Assembly: GCF_021246445.1 (NCBI RefSeq)
Contig: NZ_JAJQXW010000001.1
Location: 1,940,168 to 2,004,167, forward strand
Reading direction: 5' to 3'
Source of the DNA: Rhabdothermincola salaria
GTDB taxonomy: Bacteria; Actinomycetota; Acidimicrobiia; Acidimicrobiales; Acidimicrobilacustridaceae
Length of the DNA stretch: 64,000 nucleotides
Part shown: positions 26,762 through 49,613 of the stretch, piece after piece
Layout of the letters: each line of letters opens with the position of its first letter
Numbering within the stretch: the first letter of the stretch is position 1
Notes under the pieces: model-generated
What the model was told of the DNA's origin: nothing
Seen by the model: the letters and a program-made list of their open reading frames with translations, nothing else
Database searches by the model: none
Position numbers and translations under genes: made by a program

Positions 26762-27799
26762 ATGTTGCGCCCCCTTGCCAAGGTGGGAGCGGCTGCGGCC
26801 GTCCTCGCCGCCGCCACCCTTTTCTCCGCCTCCCCCGTCTCCTCCCAGGACTCGGGCCCGGCCATGGGCTACACCCTCCTCACGCAGGGAGGGGAGGTGC
26901 GGGACTGCCGGCTGGCCACCATCGACCTGACCACCGCCGAGGTCAACGCGCTCCCCGCCGCGTTCAGCGGGAACGCCTGCGTCAACGACCTGGCCGTCGC
27001 CCCTGACGGCACCGTGTGGGGCATCAGGGAGGGGCGGCGCCTCGCCCTCGCCGACGCCTCGTTCGCCCCTCAAGCCGAGTCACCGCTGTCCCTCGTCGCC
27101 TTCGACCCCACCACCGGCGCGGTCACCAACACGGTCACCATCGACATCCCGGGCCCCGACGGCAACGCCTTCCTCCCCGAGGGCGGCCTGGCCATCACCC
27201 CCGACGGCACGGTGTGGGCGCTCTTCGCCGCCGACGCCTGCGACGACGGGAACCAGAACTGCCTGTGGACCATCGATCCGTCCACCGGGTCGGCCACCCT
27301 CGTCGGGGAGACCGGCACGCTCGAAGAGGAGATGTTCGGGCTGGCCGCCTGCTCGGCCGGCGTGGTGACACTCACGATCGACGGTCGCAACGGCCCCACA
27401 TCCGTGCCCGCCTTCGTCCCGAACCCGGACGTGGGCTTCCTCGACCCGGCCACCGGCCTGCTCACCGAGGGCCCGGCCATCGCCGACACCGTGGTGGGCT
27501 ACGACTGCAGCGGCAGCGCCGGCTGGGCGCTCACCGGGGCGTCCATCATCGAAGACCGGTCCGTGCCCCAAGCCGTGAACGCGACGCTCACCAGCTTCGA
27601 CCCCGCCACCGGCGCGCTCTCCGAGATCGCCGCAGTGAACCCAGCTGAGTCCGACGTCGTCCTGCTGGCCGTGGCCCCCACCGTCCCGCCGCCCCCCAGC
27701 ACCACCACCACGACGGAGGCGGCCCCGGCCACCACCTCGGCCCCGACCACCACCTCGGCAGCGTCGCCGGCCGTCGTCACCCCCCGCTTCACCGGCTGA
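26762..27799 (+). CDS. Secreted beta-propeller-like protein with C-terminal VTPRFTG tail
   Basis: This 345-residue protein has a signal peptide (MLRPLAKVG, then a 15-residue hydrophobic core and an SASPVSSQ cleavage region). The body repeats segments of the type LAVAPDGTVWGI, LAITPDGTVWALF and FDPTTGAVT, each with Asp-Pro-x-Thr-Gly turns. These suggest a WD40/NHL-like propeller of four to six blades. Cys pairs (DCRLAT/NACVND, DACDDGNQNC) may form disulfides. A Thr/Ala/Pro-rich linker (about 310-335) follows, and the protein ends in PAVVTPRFTG. That ending is also found on the unrelated DUF4397 protein at 48810. There is no membrane anchor after it. Confidence 0.82.
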   Translation: MLRPLAKVGAAAAVLAAATLFSASPVSSQDSGPAMGYTLLTQGGEVRDCRLATIDLTTAEVNALPAAFSGNACVNDLAVAPDGTVWGIREGRRLALADASFAPQAESPLSLVAFDPTTGAVTNTVTIDIPGPDGNAFLPEGGLAITPDGTVWALFAADACDDGNQNCLWTIDPSTGSATLVGETGTLEEEMFGLAACSAGVVTLTIDGRNGPTSVPAFVPNPDVGFLDPATGLLTEGPAIADTVVGYDCSGSAGWALTGASIIEDRSVPQAVNATLTSFDPATGALSEIAAVNPAESDVVLLAVAPTVPPPPSTTTTTEAAPATTSAPTTTSAASPAVVTPRFTG

Positions 27800-47391: not shown

Positions 47392-47530
47392 CTCGCAAGT
47401 GCTATCAGGGTTGCGTCGCGGGCACGAAGCGACGACGGGGCGACCGGTGGAACGACCGGGGTGCCGGCCACGGCGCCTCGGACGTGGGAACGTGGGCGCT
47501 GACCAGCGACGGAGAAGGGTGGAGACGACG

Positions 47531-48809: not shown

Positions 48810-49613
48810 TCAGCCGGTGAAGCGAGGCGTCACCGTTGCGGGCTGGGCCGCAGCCGTGGTGGTCGGACCGGCCGTGGTGGTGGTGGTCTCGACGGGGACC
48901 TCGCACGGATCGAGCTCGATCAGACCGGTGAAGGCGTCGGCGCCACCATCGGCGCCGCCACCCGCGTACACCAAGATGTTGAAGCCCGGGATGGTGGTGA
49001 CGTCACCGAGCGGGATGAGCACGTCGGTGGTGCCGGTGGCCACGATGGCGGCGTCCTCGACGACGAGGCCGCCCGGGACGTCGAGGATGCTCTGCGCGCC
49101 CTCTTCGAGGTCCTGGATCAGCACGGTCTGCTCACCGGCGATGGTGCCCACGACGTCGACGGTCCCGGCCGCGGCGCCGTGACGGGCCGTGATGCGACCC
49201 TCGCCCTCGGCGAAGCAGCTGGAGTCGTTGGGCCAGACGGCGATGCTGGGCTGACCCTCGCCGCTGAGCCAGACGGCAGCCACGGTGATGTCGTCGCCGG
49301 GCTCGAGGACGAGGTCGCCGCCGATGTCGGGCTCGCCCTCACAGAGCTGGTCGGCGCCGACGTAGATGGCCACCGGGATGGTGACAGCGGGGAGCGTGAG
49401 CGGTCCGAGGGTCTCACCCCAGCTGAAGTTGCCGTCGATGACCTCGCCACCGGCGCAGACCGTGACGGTGAAGGGTTCGGTCGGGGCGTCATAGGTGGCG
49501 TCGTGGACGATGGTGACCTGGGCGGTTCCACCGTCGGTCCCGGCGCCGGCGGTGGCCGGCATCAGACCCACGGCCACCAGGGCCATCACGGCCAAGAGGG
49601 CAAGGCGCTTCAT
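48810..49613 (-). CDS. Secreted DUF4397-type protein with C-terminal VTPRFTG tail
   Basis: This 267-residue protein has a signal peptide (MKRLALLAVMALVAVGLM, then ATAGA). It has two DUF4397-like beta-sandwich repeats at about 28-125 and 130-230 (QVTIVHDATYDAP; ARHGAAAGTVDVVG; IPLGDVTTIPGFNILVYAG). Cysteines are paired (VCAGG/LCEGE/SCFAEG). A Thr-rich linker, VETTTTTAGPTTTAAA, precedes the end, PATVTPRFTG. The last seven residues equal those of the propeller-like protein at 26762, with different codons for VTP. A very good AAGGAG site precedes the ATG. It is probably a cell-surface or released protein. Confidence 0.85.
   Translation of the reverse strand: MKRLALLAVMALVAVGLMPATAGAGTDGGTAQVTIVHDATYDAPTEPFTVTVCAGGEVIDGNFSWGETLGPLTLPAVTIPVAIYVGADQLCEGEPDIGGDLVLEPGDDITVAAVWLSGEGQPSIAVWPNDSSCFAEGEGRITARHGAAAGTVDVVGTIAGEQTVLIQDLEEGAQSILDVPGGLVVEDAAIVATGTTDVLIPLGDVTTIPGFNILVYAGGGADGGADAFTGLIELDPCEVPVETTTTTAGPTTTAAAQPATVTPRFTG

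Follow-up and report, generated by a model that had tools for sequence, protein, structure and literature searches.

This locus raises the question why two proteins with unrelated bodies should end in exactly the same seven residues, VTPRFTG, directly at the stop codon. Both are encoded in the window, that is, the whole 64-kb stretch of DNA analysed here (Table 1), and the sequence-only reading had regarded their common end as a candidate sorting signal. Its description of the two genes was accurate: the translations end in PAVVTPRFTG (protein 1, 27767-27799, plus strand) and PATVTPRFTG (protein 2, 48842-48810, minus strand), each followed by TGA, and the VTP codons differ in the DNA as claimed (GTC ACC CCC in protein 1, GTG ACG CCT in protein 2). 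The last four codons and the stop, CGC TTC ACC GGC TGA, are the same in both genes. BLASTP aligned the two proteins over the seven residues VTPRFTG alone, all other pieces having E values of 2.1 or more, which bears out the claim that no body sequence is shared and excludes homology of the two proteins. The pattern P-x-[FY]-T-G-stop has exactly two matches in the window, compared with a mean of 0.02 in 100 shuffles, none of which contained two. In this sample, which was not picked for the tag by the present analysis, two of the three proteins with a signal-peptide-like start and no lipobox are tagged; the third (at 47519) may be a signal anchor.

Table 1. Coordinates of the two tagged window proteins and of their parts
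Feature	Position	Strand	Basis
Protein 1, tagged and exported-looking, 345 aa	26762..27799	+	ORF
Protein 1, order of parts: signal peptide, beta-propeller-like body, Thr/Ala/Pro linker, VTPRFTG			
Protein 1, putative signal peptide (~residues 1-31)	26762..26854	+	hydrophobic N-terminus, in-house heuristic, not SignalP
Protein 1, Pro/Thr/Ala-rich linker	27677..27775	+	sequence
Protein 1, C-terminal tag VTPRFTG and stop	27776..27799	+	
Protein 2, tagged and exported-looking, 267 aa	48810..49613	-	Pfam PF14344
Protein 2, order of parts: signal peptide, DUF4397 body, Thr-rich linker, VTPRFTG			
Protein 2, putative signal peptide (~residues 1-26)	49536..49613	-	in-house heuristic
Protein 2, Thr-rich linker	48834..48899	-	sequence
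Protein 2, C-terminal tag VTPRFTG and stop	48810..48833	-	

The body of protein 2 matches the DUF4397 model PF14344 with 34.5 bits (cut-off 30.6). Protein 1 gave sub-threshold Pfam matches only, with DUF4394 on top. Its AlphaFold model, built from 4 sequences, is all-beta with a mean pLDDT of 68 and a low-confidence, unstructured tail; from residue 301 to the end the pLDDT per ten residues declines from 71 to 48, and there is almost no secondary structure. Because the best Foldseek matches, which are Kelch propellers, are weak (TM about 0.4), a propeller-like fold of protein 1 is likely rather than firm. Three tagged homologues of protein 1 with 33-35% identity were found in a relative (G014), where they are encoded on one strand within 4.1 kb (L231, G014:C263).

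The tail is not confined to these two proteins. In the genome to which the window belongs (3.9 Mb, 7 contigs) the pattern P-x-[FY]-T-G-stop matched 25 times, versus 3 times for a reversed control pattern, which excludes a tail restricted to two proteins. Two of the 25 matches are spurious, namely a 21-codon frame (L009) and a frame with TGG and no stop (L017), the last codon of the pattern also admitting TGG and thus extra false matches; the remaining 23 are ORF ends with many different bodies. Among the 22 proteins scanned with Pfam, these bodies include peptidases and hydrolases (trypsin, peptidase M28, alpha/beta hydrolase) as well as NHL/propeller, fibronectin III, bacterial Ig/cadherin repeats, DUF4397 and Gly-rich domains, and no Pfam model of the tail was found in them. 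The bodies are partly related, since there are Gly-rich paralogues, three of them at 44-50% identity to a fourth, and two tandem pairs occur among the tagged genes (in L108 and L117). By an in-house hydrophobicity rule, 18 of the 23 tagged ORFs have a signal peptide within their own 3-kb locus; the other five (L002, L007, L013, L014, L019) overrun the locus, and a hydrophobic N-terminus is seen for them in longer stretches, giving a signal-peptide-like start in 23 of 23 according to this heuristic. Throughout, the calling of genes, signal peptides and membrane helices relied on in-house scripts, not on SignalP or Prodigal. In a MAFFT alignment of 22 of the 23 proteins (L022 had been missed by the in-house gene caller), invariance is limited to Met1, a single Pro close to the signal peptide and the P, F, T and G of the tail. 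Stretches from this genome comprised 298 predicted genes, 22 of which end in PxFTG; 19 of these belong to the signal-peptide class (n = 40) and 3 were classed otherwise through the chosen start (Fisher p 3e-16, with a tagged fraction that is biased because the stretches were selected around tags). As the sequence-only reading had supposed, the tag recurs on exported-looking proteins that belong to several unrelated families, and most of these proteins have a Thr-rich linker.

The tag can be written as [hydrophobic]-x-P-x-[F/Y]-T-G-COOH, typically VxPxFTG and then the stop. Its motif was tabulated from 71 distinct tails, each 20 residues or longer, of the own genome, its family, family f6 and named genomes; five named matches judged to be chance frames, L009, L017 and L045 had been excluded beforehand, and a 27-residue frame (L047) was retained. 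Position -3 is F in 70 tails and Y in 1, where P, F/Y, T and G are imposed by the search pattern; position -4 is R in 28, A in 20, T in 8, S in 7 and K in 4, position -7 is V in 39, A in 18, I in 6 and L in 4, and T, P and A are commonest from -20 to -12. Across genomes the tails differ at -4, -6 and -7. Other endings were sought only in two analyses with relaxed patterns, which yielded a single other end, AHTG (L113:2425), among the 298 genes of the own stretches, and two in the 239 genes from relatives, PxFAG and PSMTA, once each; the PxFAG protein (L232:1015-2178) is a homologue of a tagged protein. In G545, four of the tagged proteins read end in PxYTG.

A search of related genomes showed that the tag is restricted to certain lineages. 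In a survey of 61 genomes (the own genome and 60 relatives), 37 genomes of the same family had 616 matches versus 104 for the control, 36 of the 37 exceeding their own control, as opposed to 50 matches versus 97 in 23 genomes of other families; G041 (family f6), with 17 matches versus 1 and real tails, was kept out of the latter sum. One stretch of G041 (L119, G041:C46:1-16000) carries four adjoining tagged genes, two per strand, which cluster by BLAST with two untagged neighbours and one tagged gene of L120. Tag loss was considered for two low-count relatives (G004 and G021) and rejected, as three and four real tagged proteins, respectively, remain. Two larger surveys searched for F only and thus undercount PxYTG: a survey of 396 genomes from the whole phylum gave 11 to 25 matches in the three members of the own family, the top counts outside the family being 8 (control 5) and 7 (control 1, G211), and in 248 genomes of the order, apart from the own family and G041, the counts were conspicuous in G514 (family f125), G597 (f20) and G545 (f3), with 7 matches versus 1 in G540. 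Real tagged proteins, some glycosidase- and phosphodiesterase-like by reading, are present in G514, G597 and G545, so that together with G041 real tags occur in four genomes from four other families. The other sampled members of f125, f20 and f3 have at most 4 matches each, and the tag is therefore patchy within these families. In contigs of 84,980 species, exact VTPRFTG-stop was found 11 times in 10 stretches. Six of these matches (5 stretches, 4 genomes) look real and belong to Acidimicrobiia or an unplaced Actinomycetota MAG, one being labelled Microthrixaceae; the other five were judged to be chance frames.

The sequence-only reading had implied that cytosolic proteins should lack the tail. 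This holds for the own genome, where all tagged ORFs have a signal-peptide-like start by our heuristic and 0 of 13 predicted lipoproteins are tagged, but not for three relatives of genus g12, in which proteins with an N-terminal ubiquitin-like domain and no signal peptide end in PxFTG (L034:430-1116 in G024, L187 in G016, L232:8552-9235 in G019). Two of these fusions match PF00240 (ubiquitin) with 97.5 and 78.2 bits, the third was assigned by sequence, and a PDB search found L034 to be closely similar to eukaryotic ubiquitin. The ubiquitin fusions may be exported by another route; if not, the link between tag and export is not a strict one. A signal peptide is also missing by the in-house rule from tagged L039 and from two tagged ORFs of L146, both among the six convincing exact matches, and one of six predicted lipoproteins of G597 is tagged (L227:5490). 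A further tagged protein, L040:397-1371 (minus strand, G018), has an apparently cytosolic N-terminal domain followed by an internal Tat-like signal, SRRQVLQRLALGAAAIAIF, and has no match in Pfam.

What the tag may do is suggested by related bodies with other C-termini. Of 31 genomes selected from the order as tag-minus, 7 encode DUF4397 proteins (8 distinct proteins), and 7 of the 8 have a hydrophobic segment and basic residues at the C-terminus. Before the hydrophobic segment, five of them (L154, L156, L157, L158, L160) show a clear NTG, DTG or LPVTG and two (L152, L155) a GTG or NSG; the eighth protein (L153) is without any C-terminal signal. Protein 2 aligns with three tag-minus DUF4397 proteins (E 2e-5 to 4e-8) yet ends in VTPRFTG. 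Similarly, the repeat proteins L126 and L129, which end in LPATG or LPSTG, a helix and RRR, align with L181 and L039, which end in PSFTG-stop; all four are from the own family. For the Gly-rich body, 3 of the 31 tag-minus genomes gave matches, with no useful tails. Because the DUF4397 and repeat families swap the tag with xTG/LPxTG-helix-basic ends, we infer that it serves for anchoring or sorting: it probably occupies the place of a surface anchor and does the anchoring signal's job. Four of the eight tag-minus DUF4397 genes lie no more than about 1.1 kb from a sortase match (G040:C145, two places in G042:C1, and G052:C116), which suggests a DUF4397/sortase pair in tag-minus genomes.

The own genome encodes one sortase (L057:8519-9514), which is class-E-like (143.7 bits with the class E model, under the cut-off of 160). 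Sortases were found in 34 of the 37 family genomes, the 3 without one being 71-85% complete, and in 58 of the 61 surveyed genomes, and they are equally common in tag-minus genomes. As a gene discriminating tag-plus from tag-minus genomes the sortase thus fails, and no protein family whose presence matches the tag, as envisaged by the earlier reading, was found, the sortase being the only enzyme family tested. In a tree of 30 sortase loci, one per genome out of more than 100 sortase matches, nine of ten own-family sortases fall into one clade with TLMAC or TLMGC at the catalytic Cys. No tag-specific feature emerged among these 30 loci, because tag-plus G041 has TLTAC and tag-minus G047 has TLMAC at this motif; the main sortase of the family looks simply inherited. 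At least seven proteins of the own genome carry an LPYTG-helix-basic end (seven read out of eight family matches), and all seven ordinary sortase signals read are LPYTG. Three such proteins with long Thr-rich linkers are clustered at L136:2933-6273 (minus strand, about 403.9-407.3 kb of own contig C3). There is no tagged gene in the 20-kb stretch of the own sortase (L057), and in an all-against-all comparison of 537 predicted genes in 36 stretches no dedicated gene kept recurring up to three genes away from tagged ones, as would be expected of a many-to-one system. Recurrent neighbours considered as enzyme candidates, in 346 and then 537 genes, were mainly generic families, named by reading as SDR, crotonase and acyl-CoA dehydrogenase, and were rejected.

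We assign a probability of roughly 0.55 to the reading that the tail is an envelope sorting or attachment tag for exported proteins, whoever reads it. Judging from the sequences, tagged proteins would be exported through their N-terminal signal peptide, and the Thr/Pro/Ala-rich linker may then span the wall and present the free C-terminus, by analogy with LPxTG proteins. The fixed ending suggests that an extracytoplasmic enzyme or receptor would read P-x-F-T-G together with the free carboxylate, and the xTG-helix-basic signals on proteins of the same families suggest that the tagged protein would thereby be fixed to the envelope. Sortase-like transpeptidation between Thr and Gly, with glycine as the only leaving group, is the leading, unproven proposal for the chemistry, and the class-E-like sortase is the first, equally unproven, candidate for the reader. 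C-terminal sorting tags set which proteins a lineage displays at the cell surface, and they point the way to new transpeptidases and proteases. The present tag marks about two dozen exported-looking proteins of the own genome, proteases and other hydrolases included, and would predict an envelope address for proteins otherwise read from sequence as merely secreted; it is short, helix-free and easily searched and fused to a reporter, and it gives a clear target for an enzyme hunt.

Other explanations of the common end fare less well. Chance likeness of the two C-termini has a negligible probability and was rejected, given that none of the 100 shuffles contained two matches and that the tail outnumbers the reversed control 25 to 3 genome-wide. 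It is also very unlikely that a linker-plus-tail cassette of DNA, functionless by itself, was copied by duplication or recombination, although CGCTTCACCGGCTGA is identical in both window genes and tagged paralogues are neighbours at several loci (L108, L117, L119, L231): the upstream codons differ between the window genes, the tails vary at -4, -6 and -7 across genomes, and the tag has been kept over 37 family genomes and occurs in four further families. The codon and position pattern thus disfavours copied DNA. A C-terminal cap against tail-specific proteases, or a terminal Gly that is modified (e.g. amidated), would agree with the constancy of the terminal Gly and free carboxylate, with bodies that are in some cases ordinary hydrolases and could work when released, and with the tag on ubiquitin fusions without signal peptide. 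However, homologous bodies elsewhere bear anchoring-type C-termini, and protection alone gives little reason for P-x-F-T-G to be fixed; we consider such a cap or modification improbable.

If the tail is an envelope tag, as we prefer to read it, there is still a choice of readers. A sortase is the obvious candidate, albeit unproven, as one is present in the own genome, the tag ends in Thr-Gly and helix-free substrates are possible. The latter follows from two precedents: AbpA, which has no helix and ends in LPKTSAVK, is anchored by SrtB with cleavage between T and S (PMC4974636), and LPETG-amide alone is incorporated into the S. aureus wall by SrtA (PMC3929722). Against a sortase, the tag has Pro at P4, not P3, nothing visible retains the tagged protein at the membrane, and at least seven LPYTG-helix-basic proteins are already available to the own sortase as candidate substrates. 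Within the envelope-tag reading we give a sortase the smaller share of the probability and another reader the larger. The tag would have the same role and a different reader if, in several Acidimicrobiales families, the helix-free and purely C-terminal signal PxFTG/PxYTG-COOH, carried by some ten to thirty exported proteins in each genome, were recognised not by a sortase but by an undescribed enzyme or receptor outside the cytoplasm, for example a dedicated receptor that holds the protein non-covalently in the envelope, an enzyme that links it to a glycan or lipid, or a transpeptidase of another type. This proposal, which is possible rather than probable, agrees with the breach of three defining features of sortase signals, with the coexistence of ordinary LPYTG proteins in the own genome, and with the patchy presence of the tag (G597 in f20, G514 in f125, G545 in f3), which fits a separable system; it is weakened by the lack of a recurrent dedicated gene near tagged genes (36 stretches, 537 predicted genes) and of a candidate enzyme family, with sortase as the only family tested.

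Among known systems, the LPXTG and LAXTG signals of sortase classes A and E share with the tag the signal peptide, the Thr/Pro-rich linker, the upstream Pro and Thr-Gly, and the LPYTG signals of the own genome share aromatic-Thr-Gly. In contrast to LPXTG signals, no membrane helix follows the motif of the tag, the stop codon standing directly after Gly (by pattern), and there is no basic end, R and K being confined to -4 within the motif. The core of sortase motifs is P-x-T, which puts Pro at P3 (PMC5148588), whereas the tag reads P-x-[F/Y]-T-G with Pro at P4 in 71 of 71 tails, a spacing imposed by the pattern. The earlier reading was thus right that this is not a standard sortase signal, helix and basic tail being absent and Pro lying one place too early. 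The AbpA/SrtB system of oral streptococci resembles the tag in its TM-less signal in the last residues, which is read by a sortase (PMC4974636). This system has one substrate beside its sortase, still P-x-T spaced, whereas the tag has some ten to thirty substrates scattered over each genome and no adjoining enzyme was found. The accessible portion of the Ilumatobacter coccineum genome report gives 13 LPXTG ORFs and mentions no such tag (PMC3910706). The string PRFTG was not found in the open-access literature, where other spellings of the tail gave only a false match and no description of a C-terminal sorting signal in Acidimicrobiia was found; in the broader open-access literature no such tag was among the matches listed. 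NCBIfam (E up to 0.1) matched the 22 own tagged proteins with 23 families, all of them body families, and with no sorting-domain model; some of these families bear the names of sorted proteins of other bacteria (ScyF, rhombotarget A).

The C-terminal domains of type IX secretion, which are folded, roughly 80 residues long and found in Bacteroidota, resemble the tag as a C-terminal address for many unrelated cargos, whereas the tag comprises 5-7 residues and occurs in actinobacteria. PEP-CTERM and GlyGly-CTERM tags consist of a motif, a helix and a basic end; in contrast, the present tag is the motif alone, and the helix requirement of PEP-CTERM-like systems fails. Like PEP-CTERM/exosortase, GlyGly-CTERM/rhombosortase and MYXO-CTERM/myxosortase, it is a short C-terminal tag common to many unrelated exported proteins. 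Such short, lineage-restricted C-terminal tags on many exported proteins are described in the available parts of three reports (PMC1569441, PMC3237569, PMC11980579), the last of which assigns a tripartite architecture to MYXO-CTERM. The tag of this locus belongs to these C-terminal sorting tags, and what is new about it is that it does without the CTERM helix, stands at the extreme C-terminus and has many substrates.
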